DNA from: an archaeon
Lineage (GTDB): Archaea; Nanobdellota; Nanobdellia; SCGC-AAA011-G17; GW2011-AR17
Assembly (NCBI GenBank): GCA_018656555.1
Contig: JABHZQ010000017.1
Span: 1-47,880 of the forward strand
Direction of reading: 5' to 3'
DNA length: 47,880 nt
The stretch's first letter is position 1, and each line of letters begins with the position of its first letter. Positions 6,425-42,900 of the stretch are shown in pieces. The notes below the pieces were generated by a model that did not search any database, had not been told where the DNA came from, and worked only from the letters and a program-made list of their open reading frames with translations. Position numbers and translations under genes: made by a program.

Positions 6425-7042
6425 ATGAATGATAGAAGACTTATATTTACAATAACAATGTTACCAGAAATTCTAACTGAAGCAGAACAAAATTCTACTT
6501 TTGAAATTCCAGAAGCAGACAGAGAGTTAATACTTGGTCAGGATCATAGAACTCTTCTTGCATATTTAAGCATCCAAGTTCCTAGGGGAGATAGTAGAAC
6601 TTACCAACACTTTAGTGATAGCCTTACTAGAGAGCAGGTAGAATTTTTAGAAAGTTTAAGGGAAAGGACTTCCTCAGGATATTATAAATTAGATGTTAAT
6701 GGAAGAAATGTTGAACTAGATGCAAAAGTAGCAGAGCACTTAGAAGAAAGACTTGTATGTGATGCTGAAGCAATTTATGCAGTTAGCCCTGTGGATGGTA
6801 GAGAACATCCTTTGATGTATCCAGGAGAGGTTCCAGTTCAGGAAAAAATTCTTGGAGGAGAAAGGGTTGAAGGAGTTGTTGTTCAAGATGAATTTTGGCC
6901 AATAAAAAGAAAACAATACTCCCTAGTTAGAACAGAATTTGATGTTAGTGATGAAGAAATAAATAGATTTGAACCTTTTTTGTATTCAGAAATTAAGGTC
7001 GCTAGAAAATCATTTTCAGAAGTAATGGGAGAACAAAGATGA
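6425..7042 (+). CDS. hypothetical protein, first gene of unknown operon
   Basis: This 205-residue soluble protein matches no family I recognise. It is acidic and uses arginine far more than lysine (7 lysines), unlike the lysine-rich housekeeping proteins around it. A possible ribosome binding site (GAGGT) precedes the ATG. Its stop overlaps the start of the next gene as ATGA, so the two are co-translated. The operon sits behind a promoter shared with other unknown genes of this window. Function unknown. Confidence 0.75.
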   Translation: MNDRRLIFTITMLPEILTEAEQNSTFEIPEADRELILGQDHRTLLAYLSIQVPRGDSRTYQHFSDSLTREQVEFLESLRERTSSGYYKLDVNGRNVELDAKVAEHLEERLVCDAEAIYAVSPVDGREHPLMYPGEVPVQEKILGGERVEGVVVQDEFWPIKRKQYSLVRTEFDVSDEEINRFEPFLYSEIKVARKSFSEVMGEQR

Positions 7043-7884
7043 ATAGATTTACTAATTTAATGCATTTAGCTTTGATGGGCCTAATGGTACCACCAAGAGA
7101 TGCTTATGAAGAATTACCAGACGTACAACCAATTACTAATACATTAGGACCGGGTGAAGGACCGATCAAGGAATCAAACTTAGAAATATATATGGTTCCT
7201 TTGGATTCAAGACTTGAGAGATTAGATGTACTTGAAGAGTTAACTAGTGGATTCATACCTGAAGATCCAGCATACTTCATATTATTGAGCCAGATGTTTG
7301 AAAATGGTTCAAGTGATACAAATATGTATGTTCCTCAAGCTATAGCTGCATTTGAAGGAGTACCTGAAGAGGTTATTAGGAATTCTTTAGAAAGAGACTA
7401 CTTAGCAGGTCAATTAGCACTTGATGGAGAATCAGTTTATACAATTAAAGATCTTTTAACATATGCTGCTAGTGAACCTGATTTAATGTATGATCCTAGT
7501 GAACAGGAAATAAATAGAATGTTTAGAGATGATGAATTATCTAATGTTTTAGATAATCAAGATATACCTTATCAAGCTAGACAGAGAACAATGGGTGATT
7601 TTGGAGAAGGAGAATGGGTAGATAGAGATACTCTTTTTGATAACTCTACTGCAACAGGTCCTACTTTGGGAATAACACCTGGCAATCTGGGATATAGTGG
7701 ATTTAGAAATATGGGTCCTGGAGTTGAAGGAGGATGGATTGCAGCAGGTCTTATTTTTGGAGAAAGTCAGGATGAAGCAGATTTAGGTTATGAAATTCAA
7801 CCCATTACACCAGAGCAAGAAGCTGATTTATTAGAATTATTTGGAGATTTGTTTGAGAGGTATCAGCCTCTTAATCGAAAATAA
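7039..7884 (+). CDS. hypothetical acidic protein, second gene of unknown operon
   Basis: This 281-residue protein has only 3 lysines against 14 arginines and a large excess of Asp and Glu, which is extreme for this window. A short hydrophobic N-terminus (NLMHLALMGLM) is too weak to call a signal peptide. The C-terminal third is glycine-rich (around GPTLGITPGNLGYSG). No domain is recognised. It is coupled to the upstream gene by an ATGA overlap and followed by a T-rich tract and a new promoter, so the operon has two genes. Confidence 0.75.
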   Translation: MNRFTNLMHLALMGLMVPPRDAYEELPDVQPITNTLGPGEGPIKESNLEIYMVPLDSRLERLDVLEELTSGFIPEDPAYFILLSQMFENGSSDTNMYVPQAIAAFEGVPEEVIRNSLERDYLAGQLALDGESVYTIKDLLTYAASEPDLMYDPSEQEINRMFRDDELSNVLDNQDIPYQARQRTMGDFGEGEWVDRDTLFDNSTATGPTLGITPGNLGYSGFRNMGPGVEGGWIAAGLIFGESQDEADLGYEIQPITPEQEADLLELFGDLFERYQPLNRK

Positions 7885-7935: not shown

Positions 7936-9801
7936 ATGAAAAAGTTATTAATAATCTTTATTCTATTATTACCTTTAGTTTGTGCCCAAGATTATAATTC
8001 TTATGAAACCCTTAATGTAGAGGTAAATGTAGAAAACACAGTGGAAGTTACCTCTAGTGGTTATGATGTTAGTTATTTTATTACAGAGCTTAGTTTTTTT
8101 CCAAAGGACTACCCTTACCAGAGTGTTTCTAATGAAATAACCACTCAGCCCCAAGCAGAGGTAGAAGAAGATGAAACAATAACTATTACTTGGGATGAAA
8201 ACTCACAAAGCTATACTTTTGAAGTAAAGAGCGAAGTAGAAAGGAGAACTGATTTTGTGGAAATAAGAAATAAGATTGACTTTCCTTTGTTAGAAGTTGA
8301 TGAAGAAGTTCTAATGTATTTAGAGGAAACAGAGTTTATTGATATTAATGAGGATATTGAGGATAAAGCTTTAGAGATTGTACAAGGAGAGGATGATTTG
8401 TACATGGCTGTTTTCAAGTTAGCTGATTGGACTGAAAATAATATTGAATATGATTTAAACACTATGACTAGTGATGCTGTACAGTCTAGTTCTTGGGTTT
8501 TAGAAAATAAGGAAGGAGTTTGTGATGAGTTAAGTAATCTGTTTATTTCATTTTGTAGAAGTATGGGCATTCCTGCAAGGTTTGTTTCTGGTATGGCTTA
8601 TACTAATTTATTAGATGACTTTGGTGCTCATGGTTGGGCGGAGGTTTACATTGATGGAGAGTGGGTTCCTTTTGATGTTACTTATGGAATGCAGGGTTGG
8701 ATTGATCCTTCACATATTAAATTTGAAGATGGAGTTGATTCTAGTGGGAGTTCAGCTTCTTTCCAATGGAAAGGAAGTAATTTAGATTTTGATATTGGTG
8801 AATTAGAAATAGATACAGATATTGTTTCTGCTGAAGGAACAGTTTCAGAATATGTAGATATTTCAATGGAAGCTCTTTATGCTGATGTTGGAGAGGATAG
8901 TTATGTTCCTGTGCAAGTAACTGTAGAGAATGATAATAACTTCTATGTACCAGTAAGGGTTGCTATCACAAAAGCACCAGAGGTTATAGGAGATAATGTT
9001 CAATCTATTCTTTTAGGACCTAATGAAGAAAAGAATATTTTTTTCATTGTAAAAGTTAATAATATTTTAGAAGAAAATGTAATCTATACAACACATTTAG
9101 AAGCAGAGACCATGTATGGTGGAATTGCTGAAGATAGTTTTAATTTTGGTGCTAATAAAGAGGTTATTACTGAGAGTGATGCTGAAGAGATGATTGCACT
9201 TTTATCTGGAGAAGAAAATGGGGAGGTATTAACTGGTGTGGAATTAGATTGTTCAATGGATAAAGAAGCTTACTACTCTGAAGAAGAAGGAATACTAACT
9301 TGTGAAGTTGATGGAAGTGTTGATCAGATTTGTTTTGGTGATGATTGTCAAAGTGATTCTTTTACTTGGGATTTAGACATGGATGATTACAATTCTCAGA
9401 GATATGTTGTTATTGCTGAAAAAAATGAAAAGGTTAAATATGAATATTTTGATTTAACTATCGTCGATAAACCTGAGTTTGTAATAACTATTGATCCTTT
9501 GGAATTTGATTATGGTGATACTATTAGTTTTGATTTTAATTTAGATAGTACAGGCAAAGCAAAAAATATTGATATTGATATTGCAGAGTATGGAGATATT
9601 AGTGTTAATGAGATCAATGATGAGTACTCTTTTACCTTACCCATTGATGGGAAGAGGTTTGCAAAAGGATCTATTCAAATGGATTTAACCTATGAGGATG
9701 CATTAGGAGTGGAGTATTCAGAGAGTTTTGTTCAAGAAGTAGAAGTTAGTGGTGTTCCTTTTTATCTAAAAATAGTATATTTCTTTGAAAATTTATTCTA
9801 A
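7936..9801 (+). CDS. secreted transglutaminase-like protein
   Basis: Residues 1-17 are a Sec signal peptide (KKLLIIFILLLPLVCA). After a beta-rich region comes a transglutaminase-like domain (about 150-265) with the full Cys-His-Asp set: Cys196 in GVCDE, His232 in GAHGWAEVY and Asp247 in PFDVTYG. The rest of the 621 residues look like beta-sandwich modules, with an EDDxED-like acidic character and two Cys-containing stretches. The only hydrophobic C-terminal part is a short aromatic tail, not a clear membrane span. It probably acts outside the cell as a protease or cross-linking enzyme; archaeal members of this group are mostly uncharacterised. A TATA box lies 21-31 nt before the ATG. Confidence 0.85.
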   Translation: MKKLLIIFILLLPLVCAQDYNSYETLNVEVNVENTVEVTSSGYDVSYFITELSFFPKDYPYQSVSNEITTQPQAEVEEDETITITWDENSQSYTFEVKSEVERRTDFVEIRNKIDFPLLEVDEEVLMYLEETEFIDINEDIEDKALEIVQGEDDLYMAVFKLADWTENNIEYDLNTMTSDAVQSSSWVLENKEGVCDELSNLFISFCRSMGIPARFVSGMAYTNLLDDFGAHGWAEVYIDGEWVPFDVTYGMQGWIDPSHIKFEDGVDSSGSSASFQWKGSNLDFDIGELEIDTDIVSAEGTVSEYVDISMEALYADVGEDSYVPVQVTVENDNNFYVPVRVAITKAPEVIGDNVQSILLGPNEEKNIFFIVKVNNILEENVIYTTHLEAETMYGGIAEDSFNFGANKEVITESDAEEMIALLSGEENGEVLTGVELDCSMDKEAYYSEEEGILTCEVDGSVDQICFGDDCQSDSFTWDLDMDDYNSQRYVVIAEKNEKVKYEYFDLTIVDKPEFVITIDPLEFDYGDTISFDFNLDSTGKAKNIDIDIAEYGDISVNEINDEYSFTLPIDGKRFAKGSIQMDLTYEDALGVEYSESFVQEVEVSGVPFYLKIVYFFENLF

Positions 9802-9861: not shown

Positions 9862-9912
9862 CTTATAAATTCACATAATTCTACTTTTTTCAGTCAATTA
9901 ATAAGGGAGGGG
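9862..9912 (+). promoter_or_regulatory. promoter and strong Shine-Dalgarno of the membrane-ATPase operon
   Basis: TTATAAAT near 9863 predicts a start around 9890. A strong ribosome binding site GGAGGGGG (about 9907-9913) follows. No ATG or GTG lies at a suitable distance; the in-frame codon at proper spacing is ATT at 9919. Confidence 0.5.
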
Positions 9913-9918
9913 GATAAA

Positions 9919-10134
9919 ATTATCTGGAAAATAATATTAATAATAATCGGAGTTATTGTCCTATATATGATAGGGTACTACATTGTTAAAGACAGTGCTA
10001 ACAAGTTCTATAGAAAAGCTAGAAAGGCACACAAGAGAGGCCAAAAAGCATACAAAGATGGATTTTATGATTTAGCTGACGAACTGTATGAAAGAGCAGA
10101 AGAGTTCAGGAAGAGAGCTCGGGAGTTGGAATAA
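9919..10134 (+). CDS. small single-span membrane protein with probable AUU start
   Basis: An open frame of 71 codons encodes a hydrophobic segment (WKIILIIIGVIVLYMIGYY) followed by a basic amphipathic tail rich in Lys, Arg and Tyr (KAHKRGQKAYKDG). It ends one base before the ATG of the AAA ATPase gene. No standard start codon precedes the membrane span; ATT sits 6-7 nt after a strong GGAGGGGG. An internal ATG at 9967 would remove the membrane segment. A non-standard start therefore fits best, as known for infC in bacteria. It may anchor the two ATPases encoded next; this is inference from adjacency. Confidence 0.6.
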   Translation: MIWKIILIIIGVIVLYMIGYYIVKDSANKFYRKARKAHKRGQKAYKDGFYDLADELYERAEEFRKRARELE

Positions 10135-10135
10135 A

Positions 10136-10816
10136 ATGGAATGGTATGAAGAATTAGATTTTGATGAAAATCCATTTGGTATAGACTCCAAATATGTTGG
10201 AAATGAGGATTTACTAGATGAAGTTTTTTATTCTATTATGTCCGGCAATATTATTGTAATTCAAGGTGAAGAAGGTAGTGGTAAAACTAGAGTTATGAAA
10301 GAGATTGTTAGGAAGTTTGGAGGCAAAGGAAAGATTGCCTATGTTAATGGAAAGAATCTTGACAAAGAATTGAATGTTGAAACTTTGATAAACAAGAAAA
10401 AAGGATGGTTTAGAAAAAATCCAAAGAACATAATCCTATTATTAGATGATGTTGAACACATTTCAGAAAAAAATATGGAGAGAATCAAGTACTACTTTGA
10501 TCAGAACTATGTTAGAACTGTAATGTTAGGTACAAGTAAACCTGAAGAATTAAAATTAAGCCCAAGTTTAAAGCAAAGGGTTTGGAAAAAATTAGAAGTG
10601 GGTAAGCTTAGTGACTATGAAGCTGTTCAAGTTGTGAGGGAGAGGCTGGGGAATGAAATGCTGACAGATAGAGTTATAAAAGCTGTGTACAAAGAATCTG
10701 ACAAGAACATGAAAAAGTTTATGGAAAACTGTGAGATAATATGTAAAGCTTACATTGATAATAAAGATATAAAAGAAGATGAAGTTAAAAACATCTTAGA
10801 GAGGGGTAAAAAATGA
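10136..10816 (+). CDS. ExeA/Orc-like AAA ATPase, first of tandem pair
   Basis: Walker A is GEEGSGKT at residues 44-51 and Walker B is ILLLDD near residues 100-105. The catalytic Glu usually following the Walker B Asp is Asp here. The N-terminal LDFDENPFG resembles the LGxxxNPF opening of ExeA/TniB-type ATPases. The C-terminal 60 residues look like a winged-helix or lid domain. The ATG used lies one base after the membrane protein's stop codon; a longer frame would overlap that gene. An ATGA overlap couples it to a paralogue. The two share a domain plan and differ at the active site. Confidence 0.8.
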   Translation: MEWYEELDFDENPFGIDSKYVGNEDLLDEVFYSIMSGNIIVIQGEEGSGKTRVMKEIVRKFGGKGKIAYVNGKNLDKELNVETLINKKKGWFRKNPKNIILLLDDVEHISEKNMERIKYYFDQNYVRTVMLGTSKPEELKLSPSLKQRVWKKLEVGKLSDYEAVQVVRERLGNEMLTDRVIKAVYKESDKNMKKFMENCEIICKAYIDNKDIKEDEVKNILERGKK

Positions 10817-11769
10817 ATTCAGTATGGTTTCGAGAACTAGGATTTTTCAATAATCCATTTAGCATAAAACCTGCTATCTATTCTGATAGAATTGTTGGTT
10901 ATGAAGAAGTTGTTGATGAGATTGCCTTTAGTGTGCTAAACAAAAAGATGTTATTTTTAGAAGGTGAGTATGGAGAGGGTAAAAGTACAATATTGAAAAG
11001 ATTGATCAATGATTTTGGTGGTCAGAAGCAAGTTATCTATTATAGTTGTAATAGAATGGAAGCAAGATTAAATGTTAAGAAATTGCTTAATGGAAGATAT
11101 GGGTTCTGGGGAAAACTGTTTGATATGAAACCTAAAGATATGATCTTATTGTTAGACGAAGCTCAAGAGCTAGGTGCTAAAGATTACAGTAAGCTGTATT
11201 CCTACTACCAAGAGGGTTACTTGAAATCTATTGTCTTTGTTGGAAAAGAATTCAAGAAAGAAGAGATTGATGATAATCTTAAGAAAGTGTCTAAAGAGGT
11301 AAAGTTGAGAAAATTAACTGATGCAGAGATTGTTACTTTGGTTAGAAGAAGAGTAGGTTCTTTGCCTTTACTAACTGATGATGTAATAAAGACAGTCTAT
11401 AATCATTCTGACAAAAATGTTAGGAAGATGTTGAAGAACTGTGAGTCTTTATGTAAACATGCTGTTAATTTTGGTGAGACTAAAATTAGTGAGGATATGA
11501 TTAAAGAGGTTCTTGGTTTGAAAGTGGAGAAAAAGGTTGAGAAGAAACCAGTAGTGAAGAAGGTTGAGAAGAAAGTAGAGAAAAAACTTGAAAAAAAGGT
11601 CGTAAAGAAGAAAGAAGTTAAAAAAAAATTAAAAAAGGACCAAAACGAGTTAAAAGAGGAAGAAAAACAAGTGTACAAACCAGACGCCCCGTTAAACATA
11701 GGAAATAGTGCTGAACAGATGTTGGATAAGGGGACTGAAGAGCTCCTTGATGATGACCAGTATTATTAG
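10813..11769 (+). CDS. ExeA/Orc-like AAA ATPase with lysine-rich tail
   Basis: This is a paralogue of the preceding gene. ELGFFNNPF opens the domain, Walker A is GEYGEGKS at 51-58 and Walker B is ILLLDEAQE near 111-118, with the catalytic Glu present. After about residue 235 the protein becomes a lysine-rich low-complexity stretch built of repeated VEKK/VKK units and then an acidic end (EELLDDDQYY). Such tails often contact nucleic acid or a partner. With its Asp-Asp paralogue it could form a mixed ring in which only this subunit hydrolyses ATP efficiently, which is inference. Confidence 0.8.
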   Translation: MNSVWFRELGFFNNPFSIKPAIYSDRIVGYEEVVDEIAFSVLNKKMLFLEGEYGEGKSTILKRLINDFGGQKQVIYYSCNRMEARLNVKKLLNGRYGFWGKLFDMKPKDMILLLDEAQELGAKDYSKLYSYYQEGYLKSIVFVGKEFKKEEIDDNLKKVSKEVKLRKLTDAEIVTLVRRRVGSLPLLTDDVIKTVYNHSDKNVRKMLKNCESLCKHAVNFGETKISEDMIKEVLGLKVEKKVEKKPVVKKVEKKVEKKLEKKVVKKKEVKKKLKKDQNELKEEEKQVYKPDAPLNIGNSAEQMLDKGTEELLDDDQYY

Positions 11770-15231: not shown

Positions 15232-17073
15232 ATGAAAAAAATAATACTATCTACAATATTTATCTTAATTATTTCTTTTGGAATGGTCGCAGCAGAATTT
15301 TCAGCACAAGCTGGATATGATTGGTTAACACTTCAAGGTGGAAGTACCGGTTTTGGTGGAGACATATTTGCTACTTCTCTAGCAGTTATGGCTTTGGATG
15401 AAGGTGGGTATGATACAACAGGTTATGAAGATTGGTTATATACTCAAATGAATTCTGATTATTGTTTTGGTGGTACAACTTGTACTACAACTGATACTTC
15501 AGCTGCTGTTTTGGCTTTAGCTGAAGTTCAAGATGATACTTATTTTGATGAAATCGAGAGTTGGTTTGCTGGTAATGTTCAAGGGGCTACTTTTTCAGGG
15601 GATTGGGCTTTAGAGATTTCTACTTCTGCAACAGGCACTTGTACTTTTACTTATGATCTCCTTAATATAACTCAATCTTTAGATATTGAAGTTGATGCAG
15701 GTACTTTCCCTGCGTGTAGTGATTCAAATTTCTTAGATTTAGATACTTGTTTGCAAAGTAACTTGATTAAGAATAATCCAGGTTTAACTTTTGAGGTTGA
15801 TTGTAGTGCTTTAGAAGGAGATGTTATTATGACTCTTTTGTATAAATCAGCTACAACTTATTACTTGTTAGATAATCAAAATACAGATGTTGCTGAGTTT
15901 ACAGTAACTAATGGTTGTTTTGGTTCTGGTGGAACTGGTTCTTGTGATAAGGAATCTTCATTATATGCTAATTGGGCTTTGAAATTAATGGGCTCTGATA
16001 CAAATAGTATAATTTACTTGAAAGAGAATTATGATGACTCTAATGCATTAGATGTAGCAATTATGTATAAGATTACTGGAGATTCAACTTTCCTATCTAC
16101 TCTTGCAGATCAACAGAAAACAGATGGTAGTTTTGATAGGAATGTTTATAGAACTTCTATAGCTGTACTAGCATTAAAAGATTATGAGTCTGAATATTCT
16201 GATGTTATTGATAATGCAAAAGCATGGTTAAGAGAACAACAAGCTTCAGATGGTGATTGGAATGCAAATGTAGAAGATACTGCAATGACACTTTATGGTG
16301 CATTTAGTGATGAAGGTGTATCAGCTGCTAGTTGTTCTGATGGTGTTCAGAATCAAGGAGAGGAAGGAGTAGATTGTGGTGGACCTTGTACTTCTTGTAG
16401 TGGAGGTGCTGAAGAGTGTGCAAGTGATGTGGATTGTGAGATCTGGGGTTCTGGTTACCAATGTACTAGTGGCCAATGTATTTACTATGGAACAAGTGGT
16501 TGTGTAGATGATACAGAGTGTGATACTGGTGAAGCTTGTATAGAAGGATACTGTATGGAAACAGATTGTAATAGTGATGGTATTTGTGATTTTGGTGTGA
16601 CTAATGAGAATTCACAACATTGTCCTAGTGATTGTTACTGTGGCGATAATGTTTATGATGACTATGAACAAGTTTATGGTTGTAGTTTAGATGAACCAGA
16701 GGAAGAAGTACCTGAAGATGAGTGTTATAGTAATAGTGACTGTGCAAATGGTTATGAATGTATCTTTGGTGAATGTGTAGTTGAAGATACAAGTGGCGGA
16801 GGAGGAATTTGGGTTTTCTTGATTATAATTTTGATTTTAGGAGCTTTAGGTGGAGGAGGATTCTTCTTATGGAAGAAAGGTTACCTCGGTCCAATAATTG
16901 ATAAGGTTAAGTCTAAGTTGGGAAAGAAGCCTCCAGGTGGTCCAAGTTTTTCACCACCACCAGGACCAAGACCAGGAATGCCACCAGGCGCTCCAGGGAT
17001 GAGACCTCCAGCACGACAACCACCTTTACAAAGGTCAGTGCAACAGGCAAGACAACCACCTTTTAGAAGATGA
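15232..17073 (+). CDS. membrane-anchored surface protein with prenyltransferase-like and Cys-rich repeats
   Basis: A signal peptide (residues 1-21) precedes alpha-helical repeats of the terpene cyclase/prenyltransferase toroid type (GYDWLTLQGG, SFDRNVYRTSIAVLALK, WLREQQASDGDWN). A beta-rich insert lies at about 120-245. Three to four Cys-rich modules follow, with spacing like DxDCxxxxxCxxGxC (for example CYSNSDCANGYEC). One membrane span (about 524-546) leads to a proline-rich basic tail of about 65 residues facing the cytoplasm. It may bind or display ligands at the surface. A TATA box and a GAGGGAT ribosome site precede the ATG. An ATGA overlap couples it to the next surface gene. Confidence 0.8.
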   Translation: MKKIILSTIFILIISFGMVAAEFSAQAGYDWLTLQGGSTGFGGDIFATSLAVMALDEGGYDTTGYEDWLYTQMNSDYCFGGTTCTTTDTSAAVLALAEVQDDTYFDEIESWFAGNVQGATFSGDWALEISTSATGTCTFTYDLLNITQSLDIEVDAGTFPACSDSNFLDLDTCLQSNLIKNNPGLTFEVDCSALEGDVIMTLLYKSATTYYLLDNQNTDVAEFTVTNGCFGSGGTGSCDKESSLYANWALKLMGSDTNSIIYLKENYDDSNALDVAIMYKITGDSTFLSTLADQQKTDGSFDRNVYRTSIAVLALKDYESEYSDVIDNAKAWLREQQASDGDWNANVEDTAMTLYGAFSDEGVSAASCSDGVQNQGEEGVDCGGPCTSCSGGAEECASDVDCEIWGSGYQCTSGQCIYYGTSGCVDDTECDTGEACIEGYCMETDCNSDGICDFGVTNENSQHCPSDCYCGDNVYDDYEQVYGCSLDEPEEEVPEDECYSNSDCANGYECIFGECVVEDTSGGGGIWVFLIIILILGALGGGGFFLWKKGYLGPIIDKVKSKLGKKPPGGPSFSPPPGPRPGMPPGAPGMRPPARQPPLQRSVQQARQPPFRR

Positions 17074-18275
17074 AAAAGATTTTATTATTTATTTTCTTTA
17101 TATTGTTAATCAATATTGTATCTGCTGGAGATATTGTTATTCTACAGGAGAATTATTATTCTGGTGAAACTGTTCAAGCTTATTTGTATAATTATACATC
17201 TAATCCTTTGGCTAATATTTATGTTTTAGATAATCAAAGTAATCAAGTTTCTGTTCAACCTTCTGTTATTGAATTTAGAGAGGATCAATTTCTTGCTTAT
17301 TTTAATTTACCTCTAGGTTTAGAGAGCAATGTATATGATTTAGTTGTTCTTAGTGATAGGGTAAACTTTACAATTGAAAATAGTAGTAATGTATTAACAA
17401 TTAAACCAGGAGTATTTGTTTTAGAGAATAGAGATAGTAGTGTACAGTTAGAAGTTGAGAATGTTGGTGAAGAGGAGTTAACTCTTGAGATCGGTACTAG
17501 TAATCCATTAATTGTTCCTAGGAAGACTATTTTAGATATTGGTGTGGGTGAAAGTAAAAATATATTTTATGATTTTGAGTATAGTGCTTTAGAAGGTGAT
17601 AGTGAAGTTAGTGTAAAGTATAATTCTAAAACTTATACTATTCCAATTATCCATCCAGATATAGTTGAAGTTGTTAATGAGACAGTTGAAATTAATGAAA
17701 CTGTAAATGTTACAGAAGAGGTAAATGAAACTGAGGATATAGTAATTGTTGGTGATGCAATTGAGTTTATATCTAATGAGAGTGAGAAGAGAGTTGATAT
17801 TAATCGGACTGTTATGTATGAAGCTACTATCTCATTAATTAATAATATGGATGAAGATTTAGATGTTCTTATTGTTATGTCTGGGGATCTGGCTAGTGTT
17901 TTAAGTATTGATAATGAACCAGAAAAACTAGGTGCTAATTCTCAAACAGATTTGAGGTTGGTATTCAATAAGAATATGGGGGCTTTGCCAGGAGAGTACA
18001 AAGGAGATTTAAGAGTTATTTCTGATGAGTTTGAGGCTAAAATGAGCTTTGTTGTTAATGTTCTGGAACCTGAAACTGAAGAAGATATTGAAGTGGAGGA
18101 TTTAGAACAATATATTGTTGATGTTGGAGATCAAGAAGAAGGTACGGATCCAGTTGTTTGGATTGGTGTTGTTATGATTGCAGTTTTGTTAGTTATTTTG
18201 TTAATTCTGTTTATTAAGATGAAAGAGAAGCCTAAGAAAGATTATAATGAAGTTCTACAAGGCAGAAGGCAATAA
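17070..18275 (+). CDS. membrane-anchored surface protein with Ig-like domains
   Basis: The layout is signal peptide (1-19), three or so beta-sandwich modules resembling CARDB/NEW3 domains, one membrane span (about 359-385) and a short basic cytoplasmic tail. Between the modules is an acidic Val/Glu/Thr linker with many N-glycosylation sequons. It is translated from an ATGA overlap with the preceding surface protein, so the pair may form one complex. Its stop codon ends at the base before the 3' end of the convergent tRNA gene, with no spacer. Confidence 0.75.
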   Translation: MKKILLFIFFILLINIVSAGDIVILQENYYSGETVQAYLYNYTSNPLANIYVLDNQSNQVSVQPSVIEFREDQFLAYFNLPLGLESNVYDLVVLSDRVNFTIENSSNVLTIKPGVFVLENRDSSVQLEVENVGEEELTLEIGTSNPLIVPRKTILDIGVGESKNIFYDFEYSALEGDSEVSVKYNSKTYTIPIIHPDIVEVVNETVEINETVNVTEEVNETEDIVIVGDAIEFISNESEKRVDINRTVMYEATISLINNMDEDLDVLIVMSGDLASVLSIDNEPEKLGANSQTDLRLVFNKNMGALPGEYKGDLRVISDEFEAKMSFVVNVLEPETEEDIEVEDLEQYIVDVGDQEEGTDPVVWIGVVMIAVLLVILLILFIKMKEKPKKDYNEVLQGRRQ

Positions 18276-18381
18276 TGGCCCTGCCGGGATTTGAACCCGG
18301 GATCTCTGGCTGTCTTAGAGTGCTTTGTTGTTAAAGCTGTCATATAAGACCAGTGCTTTAACCAGACTAAGCCACAGGGCC
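18276..18381 (-). tRNA. tRNA-Ile(UAU) with intron
   Basis: The spliced molecule is 75 nt. The acceptor stem GGCCCTG/CAGGGCC is fully paired with discriminator A. The D stem is GCTT/AAGC, the anticodon stem CTGGT/GCCAG, and the T arm CCGGG-TTCAAAT-CCCGG. CCA is not encoded. The anticodon loop reads CTTATA then A after removal of a 31-nt intron at the canonical 37/38 site, giving anticodon UAU. Most archaea read AUA with a CAU tRNA modified to agmatidine by TiaS; a UAU tRNA is known from only a few lineages such as Nanoarchaeum. It lies between a convergent surface gene and the divergent cysteine synthase gene. Confidence 0.9.
18312..18342 (-). other. tRNA intron with bulge-helix-bulge motif
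   Basis: The exon bases CTTA (32-35) pair with intron bases TAAG to form the 4-bp central helix. The flanking 3-nt bulges are TA^T and AC^A. The intron folds further through GA/TC and a GCTTT/AAAGC hairpin with loop AACAAC. This is the strict substrate form for the archaeal splicing endonuclease. Confidence 0.85.
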
Positions 18382-24228: not shown

Positions 24229-24681
24229 ATGTATGATGAAATAGCAAAAGGGTATGACAGACTGCACAAAGAAGAGCAGTTGGATAAATTAAAGATTATT
24301 GCACAATATTTTAAGCCAAAAGCTCTTATGTTGGATTTGGGATGTGGTACTGGAATTGCAATGGATTATTTTGATGTTGATTCTGTTGGGATTGATCCTT
24401 CTTTAGAACTGTTGAAGTTAGGTAAAGGTAATAGGGTTTGTTGTTATGCTGAGAATTTGCCATTTAAAGATGATTCTTTTAGTTCTGTAATCTGTTTGAC
24501 TGCTGTACACCATATGGATGTAGATCTGGTGATTAAAGAAGTAAAAAGGGTGTGTAAAGGAGATGTATGTTTTAGTGTGTTAAAGAAGGCTGCAAAAAGT
24601 GATGAAATTGTAAAGAAATTAGTTGAGGCTTTTGAATTAAAAATAATTGAAGAAAAAAAAGATTTTATTTTATTCAAATAG
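24229..24681 (+). CDS. class I SAM-dependent methyltransferase
   Basis: The sequence opens MYDEIAKGYDRLH as in UbiE/Methyltransf_11 proteins. Motif I is LDLGCGTG, an acidic residue follows in VGIDPS, and ENLPFKDDSFSSVICLTAVHH carries motifs II-III, with the last part split from its usual helix. The 150 residues make it a minimal version without the C-terminal strands of larger members. The substrate is unknown. Its end overlaps the convergent surface protein gene by 12 nt. Confidence 0.8.
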   Translation: MYDEIAKGYDRLHKEEQLDKLKIIAQYFKPKALMLDLGCGTGIAMDYFDVDSVGIDPSLELLKLGKGNRVCCYAENLPFKDDSFSSVICLTAVHHMDVDLVIKEVKRVCKGDVCFSVLKKAAKSDEIVKKLVEAFELKIIEEKKDFILFK

Positions 24682-26571
24682 TTTGAAGAAATTACCTGAT
24701 TCTTGTTTCTGTGGTGCTTGTGCTGCGGTATTTGGTTCAGCTTTTCCAAGAACTGTTGCTAGTTTACCTCTATCTGCTCTCTGTTGTTTCATTGCTTCCT
24801 TCTTTTCTATCTTAGCTTCTGTTGCTTTAATATCTTTTACAACTCTTTCTCTAAAATCCTTTATGCCTTTTTCTTTTTCAAAGGTTAGTGAAGGTTTTTT
24901 CTCTTTCTTTGGCTTATCTGCCATTGTTACTGTTGGTGTTTTTTTACCAAATCTCTTTTTTGTAGGTTCTAGTGGTTTTCTAGGTACTCTTCCATATACT
25001 AAGTAAGATAATCCACCAATGAAGACTACTGCTAGCAAGATGTATAGCCAACCAAGATTATATCTCTTTGTACCATTTACAACTTCAACATTATCAACAT
25101 TTAGCAAAGCGTTTCCTGTTGGAAGCTCTATTGCATAGTTTCCTGAAGGAACTTCATCTGCAAGATTGATTTCTATTGTTTCATTAACACCAATACTCTT
25201 CTTTTTTGTTAATGTATAATCATATCCTGCACCAGACACAAGAACTTGAAGATCTTCTCTGTATCTTGTGTTACCCATGTTTCTAATGTAAAGGATTTCT
25301 CCTTCTACCCACATTTGTATGTCTTCTATTTCATTAACTATAATTGTGTCTTCATCTTGGATCTCTCCAATAGAAGATTTTATTGTCCAAGTTCCAGGTG
25401 TTGCAAACTGTGGAATTTTGTAAGATAACTCAGTTGAAGATGCAACTTGTTTTTCTGAAGCCAAATCACCAGCTGAATCTCTTACTTCTAACAATAAAGA
25501 TCCATCCATTAATTCTTCTGCTTGATCATAGAGTAAGATTTCAAATTCTAATATATCTTCTGGATCTAAAGAGGTATTTGATAGAGAATTTTCAAGTGTT
25601 GTCTCTACAGGCAAAATTTCAAAAGTTGCAGTATCTGTTCCAGTGTTTCCATCAATATCATTAACTTCAATTGCGATAGTATGTGCACCAGATTCTATTA
25701 ATAGATTTGCTTCAACTTCATAAGTGAATGATCCAGAGATTAAAGATGTGCTTGTTAGTTCTTCATTATCAACAGTTATCTCTACTGTTGCTTGATTTAC
25801 TAGCTCCTGATTAATATTTTTTACTGATCCATAGATTATTACCATCTCTCCAGGATATAGAGTATCTTCTTCTAGATCGATTATAACTGAAAGTTCATCA
25901 ACAATTTCAAAGGTTTCAATTGTTTCAAATCTTTGTTCATTACCATAACTATCTCTTACAACCAGATTTAAGTCGTAATTTCCAGGATAGGTGTTTGAAG
26001 AATCATAAGTGTAAGATATTGTTCCACCATATACAGATACTGAATCAATTAAGTACTCAATTCCTTCTTGTTCAAAGTATATTTCTGCTGTACCAGTTAT
26101 TTTTTCTTCATTCATTTTTGTAATAGTACCAGAAAGTTTGAAAGCGTCACCCATTTGTACTTGAGTTTTGTCTAGGCTGAAAAGACCATTAAGCTCTCTT
26201 GTAACTGAGAAAATATCTGAGGATGTTGATTCAAGAGGAATGCCACCAGCAAGAATGTCTGCTTCTAATTGACAAGAACCACCCATAGAGGAAGTAACAG
26301 TGATATCTGGAATGCCTAATTGAGAGAATGTTTGTTGTTCTCCAGCATTAAGATCAACAGGTACTAATTGTCTAGGGAAGGAAGTGTTTGAACAATCTAC
26401 TACAATCTGTAGAAATCCAGAGAGTTCCTCCTCTTGGAAAACATAACCTTCCACGTCGATAGTGTCTCCTATATTGTATAGGGCATCTGACGGACCAGAA
26501 ATACTTATTGTTGCTGCGACTGACGGTAATAATAACAGTATAATAAAGATAAAAACTATTCCTCTTTTCAT
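24670..26571 (-). CDS. membrane-anchored surface protein with Ig-like repeats
   Basis: A signal peptide (1-20), five or so beta-sandwich modules of about 90 residues (each with PGD/YPGEMVIIYG-like openings), one membrane span (about 502-523) and a cytoplasmic tail of about 110 residues rich in Lys, Glu and Gln form this 633-residue protein. The tail looks coiled-coil prone. GAGAGGGG precedes the ATG as ribosome site, with a TATA box further upstream. The plan matches the proteins at 15232, 17070 and 39975, suggesting a common cell-surface system. Confidence 0.75.
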   Translation of the reverse strand: MKRGIVFIFIILLLLPSVAATISISGPSDALYNIGDTIDVEGYVFQEEELSGFLQIVVDCSNTSFPRQLVPVDLNAGEQQTFSQLGIPDITVTSSMGGSCQLEADILAGGIPLESTSSDIFSVTRELNGLFSLDKTQVQMGDAFKLSGTITKMNEEKITGTAEIYFEQEGIEYLIDSVSVYGGTISYTYDSSNTYPGNYDLNLVVRDSYGNEQRFETIETFEIVDELSVIIDLEEDTLYPGEMVIIYGSVKNINQELVNQATVEITVDNEELTSTSLISGSFTYEVEANLLIESGAHTIAIEVNDIDGNTGTDTATFEILPVETTLENSLSNTSLDPEDILEFEILLYDQAEELMDGSLLLEVRDSAGDLASEKQVASSTELSYKIPQFATPGTWTIKSSIGEIQDEDTIIVNEIEDIQMWVEGEILYIRNMGNTRYREDLQVLVSGAGYDYTLTKKKSIGVNETIEINLADEVPSGNYAIELPTGNALLNVDNVEVVNGTKRYNLGWLYILLAVVFIGGLSYLVYGRVPRKPLEPTKKRFGKKTPTVTMADKPKKEKKPSLTFEKEKGIKDFRERVVKDIKATEAKIEKKEAMKQQRADRGKLATVLGKAEPNTAAQAPQKQESGNFFKLFE

Positions 26572-33877: not shown

Positions 33878-34579
33878 ATGCAAGAAGGCGCACATCAAAT
33901 GATGGGATACGATAGGGCTTCAACAATGTTTAGTCCGGATGGTAGACTGTTACAGGTAGAATATGCTAAAGAGGCTGTAAAACAAGGAAGTACTGCAATA
34001 GGAATTGTTTGTAGTGATGGAGCTGTTTTAATAGCTGATAAAAGAATTTCTGATGAATTAATAATCTCAGATGCTGTTGAGAAAATTTTCCAAGTAGACA
34101 AACATATGGGGGCTACATCTGTGGGTTATGTTATGGATGGCAGAGTTTTAATTGAAAGAGCTCAAGTTATTTCACAACAACACATGGTAACTTACACAGT
34201 TCCTATGGAAACTCTTACTTTGGTTAAAGAAATCTCAGACACAAAGCAATCTTACACTCAATATGGTGGAGCAAGACCTTTTGGTGTTTCAATCTTATTT
34301 ATTGGTGTAGATGATGGCCCAGTATTGTATGTTACTGAACCTACTGGAATATTTTTCCAATTCAGAGCTACTGCTGTTGGTGAGAACTCAGATGCTATCA
34401 AGAATTTGTTGAGAAAAGAATACAAAGAAGAGATGAATACAGACGATGGAATTAAGTTAGCAATCAAAGCTTTGAAAAAAGTAATGGGAAAAGATTTTGA
34501 TGCTAGAAGAATTGACGGAGCTGTTATTTCAACAAGTGATAAACAATTCAGAAGAATTGATAAGAAGAGGTTAAAGTAA
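33878..34579 (+). CDS. psmA: 20S proteasome alpha subunit
   Basis: The proteasome alpha N-terminal signature is present: YDRASTMFSPDGRLLQVEYA, then VKQGSTAIGI. The rest follows the Ntn-hydrolase sandwich, with YTQYGGARPFGVSI. No catalytic N-terminal Thr exists, as expected for alpha. The N-terminal tail gates the chamber. The ribosome site is GGAGGG. The beta subunit is not in the window. It is followed after one base by SBDS. Confidence 0.97.
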   Translation: MQEGAHQMMGYDRASTMFSPDGRLLQVEYAKEAVKQGSTAIGIVCSDGAVLIADKRISDELIISDAVEKIFQVDKHMGATSVGYVMDGRVLIERAQVISQQHMVTYTVPMETLTLVKEISDTKQSYTQYGGARPFGVSILFIGVDDGPVLYVTEPTGIFFQFRATAVGENSDAIKNLLRKEYKEEMNTDDGIKLAIKALKKVMGKDFDARRIDGAVISTSDKQFRRIDKKRLK

Positions 34580-34580
34580 A

Positions 34581-35282
34581 ATGGTTAATGTAGATAAAGC
34601 AATTATTGCAAGGATTAAGAAAGAAGGAGAAATCTTTGAGATCTTAGTCGACTGTGACAAGGCTTTAGAGTATAGAGATGGTAAAATAGAGAGCTTAAAT
34701 GAAGTGTTAGCAACAAGAGATATTTTTAAAGATGTTAAGAAAGCAGAAAAAGCATCAGAAACAGATATGCAAAAATTGTTTCATTCTACAAATCCAGATG
34801 AAGTCGCAGATATTATTCTTAAAAAAGGTGAGATTCAGTTAACTGCTGAATATAGAAATAACCTGAGAGAAGAAAGGAAAAAACAAATAATTGCTTTCAT
34901 ACATAGAAATGCAATTGATGCTAGAACTGGTTTACCTCATCCACCTCAAAGAATTGAGGATGCAATTGAACAGAGTAAATGTAAAATTGATGAATTTAGA
35001 TCTGTTGATGAACAAGTTCAAGAGATTGTGAGTAAACTAAGAGAGTTATTAGCAATAAAATTTGAAGTTAGAGAATTAGAAATTACAATTCCTTCTCAAT
35101 TTACAGGACCTGCCTATGGAAAGGTTAAGGGATTTGGTAAAATGTTAAAAGAAGAATGGTTGTCTAATGGAGACTTAAAAATTATGTTAGAATTACCTGC
35201 TGGTATGCAGGAATCTCTAGAAAATGAATTGAATAAATTGACAAGAGGAGATGTCGATATAAAGATTTTAAATAAGAAATAG
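34581..35282 (+). CDS. sdo1: ribosome maturation protein SBDS
   Basis: The N-terminal FYSH domain (AIIARIKKEGEIFEILVDCDK is its first strand pair) is followed by the central helical domain (AFIHRNAIDARTGLPHPPQR) and a C-terminal ferredoxin-like domain. The length of 233 residues is standard. SBDS helps release the anti-association factor aIF6 from the large subunit. It lies in the conserved order between psmA and rrp4. Confidence 0.95.
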   Translation: MVNVDKAIIARIKKEGEIFEILVDCDKALEYRDGKIESLNEVLATRDIFKDVKKAEKASETDMQKLFHSTNPDEVADIILKKGEIQLTAEYRNNLREERKKQIIAFIHRNAIDARTGLPHPPQRIEDAIEQSKCKIDEFRSVDEQVQEIVSKLRELLAIKFEVRELEITIPSQFTGPAYGKVKGFGKMLKEEWLSNGDLKIMLELPAGMQESLENELNKLTRGDVDIKILNKK

Positions 35283-35294
35283 GAGAATAAGAAA

Positions 35295-35996
35295 ATGAGT
35301 AATTTACTAATAGAAGATAAACAAGTTGTTGTGCCAGGAGATATTTTGGCAGAGGGTATGGATTATTTACCTTCATATGGTACACAAAGAGTTGGAGAGC
35401 AAATCATTGCAATGCAAGTTGGTTTAGCTAATGTGAATGGAAGAGTCATTAAGATAATTTCATTGAATGGAAGATATATTCCAAAAAAAGACGATACTGT
35501 TATTGGTTATGTTAGTGATAGTACCTACAGTTCATGGTTTGTGGACGTTGGATATGCTTATGATGGAAGCTTATCATTAAAGGATGCAACATCAGACTTT
35601 ATTGAGAGAGGAGCTAGTTTGAGTAAGTTTTTCAAATCAGGAGATATTGTTTTAATCAAGATAACAAATGTTACACGAGAAAAAGCAATTGATCTTAGTA
35701 TGAAAGGTCCAGGACTAAGGAAATTAACAACTGGTAAAGTTATTGAAATCTCACCTTCAAAGGTTCCAAGAGTTGTTGGAAAACAAGGAAGTATGATCTC
35801 AATGATTAAAGAGAAAACAGGTTGTTCAATCTTTGCAGGACAAAATGGAAGGATTTGGATTAAAAGTGAGGATCCAGTAATGGACAAACTTGCTACAGAC
35901 GCAATCTTACTTATCGAACAAAAGTCACATGTATCTGGTTTGACTGATCTGATAAAAGAATTCTTAGAACAGAATGTTAAGGAGAAGAAAAAATGA
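35295..35996 (+). CDS. rrp4: exosome RNA-binding subunit Rrp4
   Basis: Three parts are visible: N-terminal domain (VVVPGDILAEG), an S1 domain (FKSGDIVLIKITNV) and a KH domain with the GKQGS loop (VVGKQGSMISMIKEKTG). Rrp4 caps the hexameric Rrp41-Rrp42 ring and guides RNA into it. It has 233 residues. An AGGAGAAT ribosome site is upstream, and an ATGA overlap links it to rrp41. Confidence 0.95.
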   Translation: MSNLLIEDKQVVVPGDILAEGMDYLPSYGTQRVGEQIIAMQVGLANVNGRVIKIISLNGRYIPKKDDTVIGYVSDSTYSSWFVDVGYAYDGSLSLKDATSDFIERGASLSKFFKSGDIVLIKITNVTREKAIDLSMKGPGLRKLTTGKVIEISPSKVPRVVGKQGSMISMIKEKTGCSIFAGQNGRIWIKSEDPVMDKLATDAILLIEQKSHVSGLTDLIKEFLEQNVKEKKK

Positions 35997-36700
35997 AATA
36001 CACAAAAAGAAATGACGGAAGAAAGTTCGATGAATCTCGTAAGGTAGAGGCTAAGGTTGGAGTTGTTCCAAATGCTTTGGGTTCTGCTATGCTTAAGATT
36101 GGAAAGACTGTTGCTGTTGCAGCTGTTTATGGACCAAAAGAATTATTTCCAAAACCATTACAAAACCCATTAAGAGGTAGGTTAAGATGTACTTACAACA
36201 TGATGGCTTTTTCTGGAGCTGGAGATAGAGTAAGACCAGGACCAAGTAGAAGAAGTAAGGAAATTGCTTTGGTTACTGAGAATGCATTGGATCCTGTTTT
36301 AGATCTTAGTGCTTTTCCAAAAACAGTAATTGATGTGCATATTGAATTAATTCAAACAGATGCTGGAACAAGATGTGCTGGAATTAGTGCAGCTTCAATG
36401 GCTTTAGCTGATGCTGGATTTAGAATGAAAGATATGGTAGCAGCTGTTGCTTGTGGTGTTGTTGGCGGACAACCTTTAGTTGACCTTGATAAATTTGAGG
36501 AAGATTATGAGGGTGGAAGTGTTGACATACCAGTTGCAATGATGCCAAGAACTGGAGAGATTACTTTACTTCAGTTAGATGGTGAAGTCGATAAAAAAGA
36601 TCTTATGAAAGCTGTTGAAATGGCCAAAGTTGGTTGTATGCAGATTTTTGAGGTACAAAAAGCAGCATTAAAGGCTAAGTATGAGGAGGCTAAAAAATGA
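35993..36700 (+). CDS. rrp41: exosome catalytic subunit Rrp41
   Basis: The RNase PH fold carries the phosphate- and RNA-binding Arg pair in PSRRSKEIALV, IELIQTDAGTRCAGISAAS, and the catalytic Asp in SVDIPVAMMP. The 235 residues match archaeal Rrp41. It degrades RNA 3' to 5' with phosphate, and adds tails with nucleoside diphosphates in reverse. It is coupled at both ends by ATGA overlaps. Confidence 0.96.
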   Translation: MKYTKRNDGRKFDESRKVEAKVGVVPNALGSAMLKIGKTVAVAAVYGPKELFPKPLQNPLRGRLRCTYNMMAFSGAGDRVRPGPSRRSKEIALVTENALDPVLDLSAFPKTVIDVHIELIQTDAGTRCAGISAASMALADAGFRMKDMVAAVACGVVGGQPLVDLDKFEEDYEGGSVDIPVAMMPRTGEITLLQLDGEVDKKDLMKAVEMAKVGCMQIFEVQKAALKAKYEEAKK

Positions 36701-37470
36701 TATCCGCAAGTTATATTAATCAAATCACTGCAAAGGGATTTAGAGCTGATGGCCGAAAGTTTGATGAATATAGACAGCCTGTTTCAGTAGAATATGGTAT
36801 TTCTGCTAAATCAGCTGAAGGTTCTGCAAGAGTAAAAATTGGTGGAACTGAAGTTGTAGCTGGAGTTAAGTTAGATTTAGGAACTCCTTATTCAGATAGA
36901 CCTGCTGAAGGTACTATTATGGTTAATGTAGAATTGTTACCTCTATCTTCAACCAAGTATGAATCTGGTCCTCCAGATGTTTCAGCAATTGAAATGTCAA
37001 GAGTTATTGACAGAGGTATCAGAGAATGTGATGCTGTTGACTTTAAGAAACTCTGCGTTACACCAGGAGAGAAAGTATGGATGGTATTTGTTGATATCTA
37101 TCCAATAAATGCTGATGGAAATCTTTTTGATGCTTGTTCATTAGCTGCTTTAGCTGCTTTGAAAGATGCAAAGTTTCCAAAAATAGTTGATGGTATTGTT
37201 GATTATAAGGAAAGAACAAAAGATAGTCTTCCAATACAGAAAATGCCTTTAGAGTGTACTGTTTGGAAAGTAGGTAGTGAGTTCCTTATTGACCCAACTG
37301 TTGATGAAGAGAATGCAGCCGAGAGTAGACTTACAGTTGCTTTTACTGATAAAGGAGCGGTTTGTGCCTTACAAAAAGGTGGCAAATTAAGTTTAACCTC
37401 AGAAGATATTGGAAAAATGGTTGATTTGGCTGATAAAAAGACAAAGGAGTTAAGAGGTTATTTGAAATGA
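36697..37470 (+). CDS. rrp42: exosome subunit Rrp42
   Basis: This is the inactive RNase PH-fold partner of Rrp41. The N-terminus [13 protein letters not shown] is typical, and the phosphate-site arginines and catalytic Asp seen in Rrp41 are not conserved. Three copies alternate with Rrp41 in the ring and help bind RNA. It has 257 residues and overlaps both neighbours as ATGA. Confidence 0.96.
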
Positions 37471-39974: not shown

Positions 39975-42900
39975 TTAATTAATCTTGTCTTTTGGCTTTT
40001 TCTTTAAAACCTTCTCTAATAATCCTTTTGTGATTAATCTTCCCCTTTCCTTAGCACTTAAGGGTTGTTTAGTCCTCTTTTTTTGAATGGATTTTTTTGG
40101 TTCAAAATAATTATCTATTTTTTCTTTATAATTCCACAATAAGAAGACTATTGTTGCCCCAAGGATTAGAATTAATATTATCCAGAAATAAGGGAAGGAA
40201 GAGGTTTCCCTTGTAATAGGGTCAAAACTAAACTCTACTTCTTCTCCACTATCTTCAACAAAAACTGTTCTATAGGATGTGGCTATATAATCTCCATAAT
40301 TTACTTCAATGTAGAATTGGTAAGAACCTGAATCTAATCCTCTTGGGATGTAGAGATTTGCTTGTTCATCTTTTTCTTCATATTCTGATAAGTAGATAGT
40401 ATCTTGTCCAGAGGTTATAATTTCTCCATTTTCATCTTCTAACCAGAATCTTACAATAACATCATCATTTATATTGGCCATTCCTTTAAGGAAATAATCA
40501 AAACTTAATGTATCATCAATATCTAAAACTGGTTCAATCTCAATTATTTTTATATCAAATACTTTTTGACATTGATGTTCATGACAGGTTTCATCTTCAG
40601 CACAGTCTTCATTTGTATAACATTCATATTCTTCTGTTTCTATAGAAGAGCTACTTCCTCCAGAAGAACCACTCCCACTAGATGTTCCACTTCCTGAACT
40701 AGGAGCTGGAGCTGCTTCTGAAGCTGCAATTGAAAAATTAGCAAGAGCAGTTCCAATTAGGTTTTGATCATTTATAGCATATACTTTTAGAATATGGTTT
40801 TCTGTACTTAGACTAGATATTGTTGTATTTGGTGTAAAACTAATATTAGCTCCAGAATCTAAACTATATAACCAGCTAGAAATATTTTGATCTGCAGTGA
40901 CAGCAAGATCTACTTCTGTTTCATTGTAAGTTATATTTTCTGGAGATACAACTGAGATTATAGGATTTGCACTTGTTGAATATGTAACACTTCTTTGTTC
41001 TGTTTGGTTTAGGTTTCCTGCAATATCTTGTATGTAGGCTGTATAAAGATAGGTTGCATTAATAGTCATATTTGTGAATGTATTTGAAAAAGGGTAGATG
41101 TTTGCATTGTAACTTGAATTAATCTCTGCAGGAGATAACACTCTTGAATGTAATCTAACTTCATCCATAGTTCCATTGAAGAATTCTGTTGTATAAGATG
41201 AAATGTAGTGTCTTCCAACTACCACTGCATCATCATTAGTAGGTAGGGTTCCATTGTAATCAGTTCCAGATGCAGTTAAAGTTCCATCAACATATAATCT
41301 CATTTCAGTTCCATTGTATGTTGCAGCAATATGATGCCATTGATTGTCATTTACATTTATAGAAGAGGTAATATTGTAATTTGTTTCATCACTAATTATT
41401 GTGAATTTTCCTCCATCAACTGTGCTTAATGCAAAAGGAAGATTTTCTTTTGATACAGAATCATCTCCATCTCTGATATAAATATTCATTCTAATATCTG
41501 AAGAGGTTGTTGAAGTGGTATCATAATAGTATTTATTACAGGCAGCATCTCCAGTGTTATAGTTTTCTTGTCCAAATTTAGGAGTACTTCCCCCTGTACC
41601 TAATGCTGGACCACCTGAACCTGCATTTAAAGTTGTTCCAGATGTTACTCCCCAAGATCCATCATCACCAGAAAATGTACTTCTTGTGTAAAATGTTGAA
41701 GAGGTTATACTTGCTTCATGGCTAAATCTATAAACATCCAAAAATCCAGAAACAAAATTTCCACTGTAGTTTGCTGTCCAATTTACAGATTCTCCAGCAG
41801 ATACAATATCACCTAACCTTTCATCTAGCTCTTTTGAAGTATTGTACTTCATTTTAACTGCAAATTTAAAAACATCATCATCAAATAATTCTAATAACCA
41901 CTGATTATTTGACATATTCCCTAATTTTTTTGTTGCATAAACAGTTGTTAAATCTGTTAAATTATTATACCCCAGGGGAATGCCTTCTGCACAACGAGTA
42001 CTATCTGTTGTTGCAAAAAGAGTCCAACCCCCACCAAACCCAGAATCATTTTGTTGTTTACAATATGCACTTGTTGCAACCCCTTGTATTGTAAGATTAT
42101 ATGCACCATTAGTATTATACCCTTCATTAAGTAAATCTAAACAGGTTGTGTTTGTTGTTGGGTCTTTTGCAAGGATATAACCCTCAGAACCAGACTTAAT
42201 CCAAGCTTCTATAGTAATTTCATCAGTTATATTCAAACTACTTGCATTTCCTGAATTTATTTGATCATTAATCCCATCAAAACTTAATCCTTTTCCAAAT
42301 TTTCCTGCAGAGGATATTGTTGCACCAGAAATTGTTCCATTATTTCCATAGGTTGATTGATCTAAAACTAAAGTACTATTCTCTCCAGTTTCATTATTCA
42401 TTCTATACCAAAGTCTTAAACTTTGGTTCCAATCTAGAAATACTGTGTTATTATTGGATTCTGTAGAGTCTACACTTATTGTTACAGTGTTACTTGCTTG
42501 TATTGTTCCATTGGAAGGTGTAGGTGAATCAAATTCTATTAGTGGATTTGTTGAATCTATTGTTATTGTATATGTGGCAGTATTATTTTTGTTACCATAA
42601 ATATCGTTTATTGTAGCATTAAGATAATAAGTACCTCCATCTAAGCTTGAAAATGTATTTGAAAAATCATCAGAACTGTCGCTTGCCGTACTATCAAGTC
42701 CATCTGCATCATAAAGATTTATTGTAACTAAATTTACTCCTGCACTTGTTGTTGTGATATTAGCAAAAATTGAATTTGTTGTGTAAGTTCCACTAGTTGT
42801 TGTACTATCTCCATAATCTATTGAAGGAAGATTCTTTATGGTAGTATTCCATTTTGCTGTCTCTGTATTGATTGATGTATTGCTTGTTAAATTAGCATAA

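Follow-up and report, generated by a model that had tools for sequence, protein, structure and literature searches.

The window analysed here, a stretch of 47,880 nucleotides, is one contig of a 1.08 Mb archaeal genome. At 9919–11769 it carries a gene for a 71-residue protein with a single transmembrane (TM) span, followed by genes for two AAA+ ATPases, termed A and B below (Table 1); this is the arrangement described by the initial annotation, which was made from the sequence without database searches. The anchor gene and A are separated by 1 nt, and the stop codon of A is overlapped by the start codon of B (ATGA, a gap of −4 nt).

Table 1. Features of the three-gene unit and its upstream neighbour (window coordinates)
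Feature	Position	Strand	Remarks
Secreted transglutaminase-core protein	7936..9801	+	Signal peptide; Pfam Transglut_core 5.9e-26; candidate extracellular partner
TATA-box-like TTATAAAT before the unit	9863..9870	+	Read from sequence; putative function
Shine–Dalgarno-like GGGAGGGGG	9905..9913	+	Read from sequence; includes GGAGGGGG at 9906-9913
One-span anchor, 71 residues	9919..10134	+	TM span, then predicted cytoplasmic TPR-like hairpin; ATT start
Hairpin module	9988..10131	+	Search profile A5, E 2.8e-18 at the window
Anchor His38	10030-10032	+	Invariant
Anchor Arg64	10108-10110	+	Invariant
ATPase A, AAA+	10136..10816	+	ATG 10136; predicted arginine-finger donor, own site decayed
A Walker A GEEGSGKT	10265..10288	+	Lys in 65/68 A, Arg in 3
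A Walker B Asp-Asp (LLLLDD)	10445..10450	+	Second residue N/D/E/G in other A
A Arg148, box VII arginine-finger position	10577..10579	+	Arg in 68/68 A
ATPase B, AAA+	10813..11769	+	ATG 10813; predicted catalytic subunit without arginine finger; disordered Lys-rich tail
B Walker B Asp-Glu (LLLLDE)	11155..11160	+	Glu in 66/66 B
B sensor-2-type Arg204	11422..11424	+	Arg in 64/64 B; Lys in most A
B low-complexity K/E tail	11563..11766	+	Ends acidic-aromatic, LLDDDQYY; pLDDT <50 over residues 251-303 and 306-318

The anchor frame opens without an ATG, at ATT 9919, 5 nt past GGAGGGGG, and the next in-frame ATG (9967) would truncate the TM span. Since the relatives have ATG at the position aligned with ATT 9919 (M-E/I-W-W-K-I) and the nearest relative (L035, with its anchor gene on the reverse strand) has ATC, the gene is real and is likely to use a non-AUG start. 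Such starts with a strong Shine–Dalgarno sequence are common to two genera (ATT in the window, ATC in L035). The relatives of ATPase A start with MEWYEELD, matching ATG 10136; the mechanical open-reading-frame call begins at 10088.

Both ATPases have the invariant Walker A and Walker B motifs of AAA+ proteins (the Walker A motif of B is GEYGEGKS) and, in the models, a RecA-like core with a helical lid. A was modelled by AlphaFold2 with a pLDDT of 89.9; the model of B has a confident core and a tail that is disordered from about residue 251. Foldseek matched the cores to RuvB, ORC/Cdc6, RFC, MgsA, MuB and TnsC (E to 1.8e-9), and the N-terminal 'GF..NPFSI.P' is a stretch that we take to resemble ExeA. 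A MoxR-type operon, suggested by the transglutaminase gene, was rejected: A and B match Pfam AAA_14/AAA_22, and the MoxR match is weak.

The Lys-rich tail on B and the unequal Walker B motifs, Asp-Asp in A and Asp-Glu in B, had been noted in the initial annotation and were confirmed. The end of the tail is a conserved acidic-aromatic peptide. A single partner carries a terminal [YF][YF] in 32 of the 67 pairs (B in 17, A in 15, never both), so the tail has moved between the paralogues with its last residues kept; among 480 other neighbour genes, none ends in YY. In other lineages the tails end in PEYNIVFYNE-like or YWGEFMGMQK-like motifs. In L157, L170, L177, L179, L193, L197 and L251–L258, A carries a C-terminal zinc ribbon, and these lineages have giant anchors or no detectable anchor. 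A similarity at contig C17 of genome G000 is confined to the Lys-rich tail (a fragment match). Binding of the -YY tail to PCNA as a PIP box was rejected on the misfit of spacing and hydrophobic position, and its recognition by the hairpin because -YY is kept in the hairpinless g8 and G003 loci.

An alignment of 155 sequences served to read the catalytic columns. Directly after the Walker B Asp, every B has Glu, as do 20/20 unpaired homologues; in A the same column holds Asn in 39, Asp in 19, Glu in 9 and Gly in one. The box VII Arg, present in every A and in 19/20 unpaired homologues, is found in only 4/63 B. Profile-to-PDB alignment placed Arg148 of A on the SRF of Aquifex DnaA (1l8q), which is its box VII finger. 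The sensor 2 Arg of B is likewise kept in 20/20 unpaired homologues. Across the 67 pairs, whose counts share ancestry and are not independent replicates, A keeps the finger Arg in 67/67 and is without the Glu in 59/67, while B has the Glu in 66/66 and is without the Arg in 59/63, a loss that may be a single ancestral event. The exceptions to complementary loss are nine A sequences with the Walker B Glu and four B sequences with Arg in the finger column. A and B are 35% identical, and the argument rests on residues kept in both partners despite divergence to about that level.

With both catalytic columns taken out of the alignment, the tree groups the A sequences on one side and the B sequences, except in one aberrant pair, on another. 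Winged-helix singletons make up a separate clade, and the anchor-linked single ATPase falls beside B. The distances among A sequences mirror those among B sequences (r 0.85, against a permutation maximum of 0.20). A and B are the products of one old duplication, and their decay was complementary. Because the losses within pairs are complementary and the unpaired homologues keep both Glu and Arg, a composite B:A active site is predicted, and we consider it very probable. The natural reading would be that A and B form an obligate heteromer, with ATP hydrolysed by B against the Arg of A and the reverse interface silent. The complementary losses and the co-diverging trees support the earlier suggestion that two unequal ATPases form a hetero-complex.

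The small protein is a modular unit of a TM span and a TPR-like hairpin, in which Ala34, His38 and Arg64 are invariant. It had been described as carrying a basic amphipathic tail; this segment is indeed helical, with basic and acidic residues, but is better described as a helical hairpin with invariant residues. 'TPR-like' should be taken as a description of the hairpin and not as membership of the TPR family, because the models for TPR_2 (11/35 matches), DUF1771 (14/35) and MIT all match weakly. A profile of the 50-residue cytoplasmic hairpin gave 50 matches in 378 genomes of the class, 48 of which lie directly 5′ of an ATPase of this family (median gap 5 nt); of the two exceptions, one is at a contig start and one is a weak match.

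In other lineages the hairpin is often the C-terminus of a larger protein. The anchors of L055–L057 have an ectodomain of ∼110 residues, those of L158, L169, L178 and others are Cys-rich secreted domains ending in the hairpin, and further fusions are giant surface proteins of Ig, PKD, cadherin or β-helix type. Two giant anchors are complete (2,213 aa in L259 and 2,182 aa in L260), each with a signal peptide, one TM span near the C-terminus and the hairpin, and hence the likely topology of the anchor is an extracellular arm, a TM span and a cytoplasmic hairpin. The genome of L259 (G254:C31) has two copies of the system within ∼19 kb, each with its own giant surface protein. The window itself also encodes a 1,457-aa secreted protein with a C-terminal TM span and a Lys-rich end (39975-44348, reverse strand) and smaller secreted one-span proteins (15232-17073, 17070-18275 and 24670-26571); at 1e-6 the hairpin profile matched none of these proteins.

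Of 17 searched relatives in the window's family, 16 have tandem A–B pairs, and so do several further families within the order and the class. When each species was represented by one genome, a scan gave 74 loci (75 with the window), labelled mostly Woesearchaeota/Nanoarchaeota, the others 'archaeon' metagenome-assembled genomes and once 'bacterium'. Outside the class (Woesearchaeota/Nanoarchaeia) there were zero matches in 279 genomes spread across the phylum. A hairpin protein lies directly upstream of the pair in 62/75 loci, 58 by the profile and four more in which the ATPase start was miscalled. Conservation of the three-gene order in related archaea, the check that the initial annotation had put forward, was thus borne out. 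Relatives with the ATPases and without the small protein, which it had named as counter-evidence, do occur: the other 13 loci have no detectable hairpin protein beside the pair, and among them are four genomes of one sister genus in which a secreted transglutaminase gene runs straight into A. The anchor is therefore usual and not obligatory. Since the pair turns up repeatedly, both within the window's family and in many others, with the hairpin upstream in most loci, the arrangement is not due to chance.

The transglutaminase gene upstream of the unit belongs to cluster c3; in the window's family this cluster is present at 13 loci, immediately before either the unit or the ATPases. Before it in the window lie genes for two overlapping acidic proteins (6425-7042 and 7039-7884) with no Pfam match and no relatives in the neighbouring loci. 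Further along, a tRNA was found by Rfam at 18276-18381 on the reverse strand (62.9 bits, 106 nt span) and missed by ARAGORN; it probably contains an intron. About 22 kb from the ATPases, a run at 33878-37470 encodes proteasome α and apparent SBDS, Rrp4, Rrp41 and Rrp42, which is the usual archaeal exosome–proteasome cluster. In L061, L063 and L068, winged-helix or unpaired relatives of A and B lie near short genes starting MKRGQ or MKKGQ, which resemble class III signal peptide pilins.

Elsewhere, M29 and M16 peptidase genes lie upstream in two other families, with DUF1385 also a neighbour, and in L165 and L174 a SepF gene is directly upstream of the hairpin gene. In 7/8 single-ATPase loci, all of one family, genes for a GTPase, OapB, OapC, the anchor and the ATPase follow in this order on the same strand, with 55 nt to 1.8 kb between OapC and the anchor. 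OapABC was renamed ArvABC by Mills and colleagues; it drives vesicle formation in Haloferax and is present in DPANN archaea (PMC10927574). The arvABC link is limited to one lineage. Taken with the surface arms, this vesiculation operon suggests a role at the envelope and not on DNA.

On balance we favour, as somewhat the more probable account, a heteromeric AAA+ machine that is encoded by the three genes, is anchored in the envelope and acts on a surface protein or the membrane next to it. Directly observed in the genomes are the gene order, the duplication, the complementary loss of residues, the modularity of the hairpin and its fusions; homology and gene order suggest the hetero-complex, the contact between hairpin and ATPases, and the topology. 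B would bind and hydrolyse ATP, and the arginine finger of A would complete the site of B in trans, the site of A itself being mostly inactive. Only the B-to-A interface would then fire, in an A–B dimer or an alternating ring. The TPR-like hairpin of the single-span protein would hold the complex at the inner face of the membrane; such tethering, where the hairpin is present, can be proposed with good confidence, and the earlier suggestion of membrane tethering is supported. Outside the cell, the anchors of other lineages would present a Cys-rich ectodomain or a giant arm of Ig, cadherin or β-helix type; in the window's family the anchor has no outside part, and a secreted transglutaminase-like protein is encoded just upstream. 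ATP cycling would most plausibly be used to assemble, cluster, release or remodel the surface protein or nearby membrane, for which we put the chances at about even. Neither A nor B is likely to work alone; they most probably act together at the cell envelope. In its fullest and more tentative form, the proposal is an envelope machine of a kind not described before in DPANN archaea: two paralogous AAA+ subunits, each needing the other and sharing one composite active site, may work the cytoplasmic hairpin tail of a surface protein of up to 2,200 residues and so remodel or move the envelope for host attachment or vesicle release. Several observations count against this account: the foldable cores most resemble RuvB, ORC, RFC and MgsA, which act on DNA; 13 loci have the pair and no detectable hairpin; the complementary loss has its exceptions in A and B; and the arvABC link comes from a single lineage.

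The initial annotation had left the choice between DNA and a surface machine; the fused giant surface proteins favour the surface half, and the DNA half is weakened by the absence of a winged helix from A and B and of any DNA-related gene beside them. An initiator- or clamp-loader-like complex fixing DNA at the membrane, with the Lys tail or zinc ribbon contacting nucleic acid, would suit the folds closest to the cores (RuvB, ORC1/Cdc6, RFC, MgsA, TnsC and MuB), DnaA as the best PDB profile match, the C-terminal winged-helix domains on unpaired homologous ATPases of the same genomes and the zinc ribbon on A in several lineages. It is nevertheless unlikely: adjacent genes encode surface proteins, peptidases, SepF or ArvABC and not DNA functions, the hairpin anchors bear 2,200-aa extracellular arms and the 'origin-associated' Oap genes near the single-ATPase loci are the vesicle operon arvABC (PMC10927574). 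The SepF gene that immediately precedes the hairpin gene in L165 and L174, and the enrichment of FtsZ2 in Haloferax vesicles (PMC10927574), might instead suggest a regulator of cell division or envelope constriction working with FtsZ and SepF. The SepF link is confined to one lineage, however, the FtsZ tails of these genomes (GIEFVD) are unlike the ATPase tails and the system is missing from most genomes of the class, while FtsZ is present in 60/60 relatives searched; we hold such a role to be quite improbable. Three FtsZ genes were seen in G000 and several genomes of the same family, and two in most genomes of the order; mimicry of the FtsZ tail was rejected because the C-termini differ.

That the -YY tail docks on the 20S α ring in the manner of HbYX/GQYL, bringing proteolysis to the membrane, is very unlikely as the function of the system. 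In 32 pairs exactly one partner has the YY-type end, which is absent from the other neighbour genes, a 20S proteasome is encoded in nearly all of the genomes and M29 and M16 peptidase genes lie upstream in two families; yet most tails have Q/K/R, not a hydrophobic residue, before YY, and only LYY (one genus and G003) fits HbYX. In the same genomes the C-termini of the Cdc48 and PAN-like ATPases are -Y(L/M/F)G and -MFG, and the YY motif is missing from 35/67 pairs. Docking of the tail on the proteasome is thus possible and poorly supported. Weak Pfam matches to NACHT, NB-ARC and nSTAND and a weak PADLOC match to mad8 would fit a STAND-like signalling or defence switch, in which the surface arm senses contact and the ATPases oligomerise; with no effector domain or nuclease either fused or adjacent, and with co-diverging, largely vertical-looking inheritance that is not island-like, we give this reading very little weight. 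An anti-phage defence system was rejected, as the PADLOC defence models gave only partial weak matches and no full-length match with partner genes.

To our knowledge, DPANN archaea that have been brought into culture depend on touching their host cell directly, and the motors that serve such contacts at the surface are poorly known. The unit described here, carried by many tiny uncultured archaea of Woesearchaeota type, is a conserved, class-restricted set of ATPase genes that is genetically tied to surface arms and, in one family, to a vesiculation operon. If the proposal is right, ATP turnover should occur only when A and B are mixed and should be lost on a single change of Arg148 in A. The pair would be a clean natural case of paralogues splitting one active site, with the unpaired homologues as an internal control.

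One of the closest known systems is TorsinA of the eukaryotic nuclear envelope and ER, which is activated in trans by a membrane-linked AAA-like partner, LAP1 or LULL1, that gives the arginine finger (PMC4358337): ATPase B is likewise without the finger and A would supply it. The likeness is one of residue pattern only, and no sequence kinship with Torsin or LAP1 was seen. LAP1 is itself a membrane protein without nucleotide motifs, whereas A is soluble, has no TM span and keeps its Walker A motif, the anchor being a third protein. ExeA/ExeB (GspA/GspB) couples a cytoplasmic AAA ATPase through one TM span to an extracytoplasmic domain in a heteromultimer that helps to assemble a surface machine (PMC4098917), and this coupling is shared. 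ExeA, however, is a single chain of AAA domain, TM span and peptidoglycan-binding domain; here the anchor and two paralogous ATPases are separate, the soluble single-domain A and B have no peptidoglycan-binding Pfam match and, unlike type II secretion, neither a secretin nor a peptidoglycan-binding domain is involved. RFC and the γ complex also divide labour among AAA+ paralogues of similar fold with an arginine finger in trans, but the present system has no collar domain and no clamp and does have a membrane anchor. Archaeal Orc1/Cdc6 shares the initiator-like AAA+ core; A and B differ in having paired genes, a membrane anchor and no winged-helix domain (no match to an HTH on either, and no fold after the lid in the AlphaFold2 models). 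ArvABC, which adjoins the single-ATPase form in one family, is a neighbour and not a homologue, its GTPase not being AAA+. Because these defining features fail, the system belongs to neither Torsin/LAP1 nor ExeA/ExeB nor Orc1/Cdc6. The earlier statement that no described system has this plan held in our literature searches for the arrangement, which covered open-access papers and found none. The system is real, conserved and, within the reach of these searches, undescribed: its chemistry is of a known kind and its plan is new.
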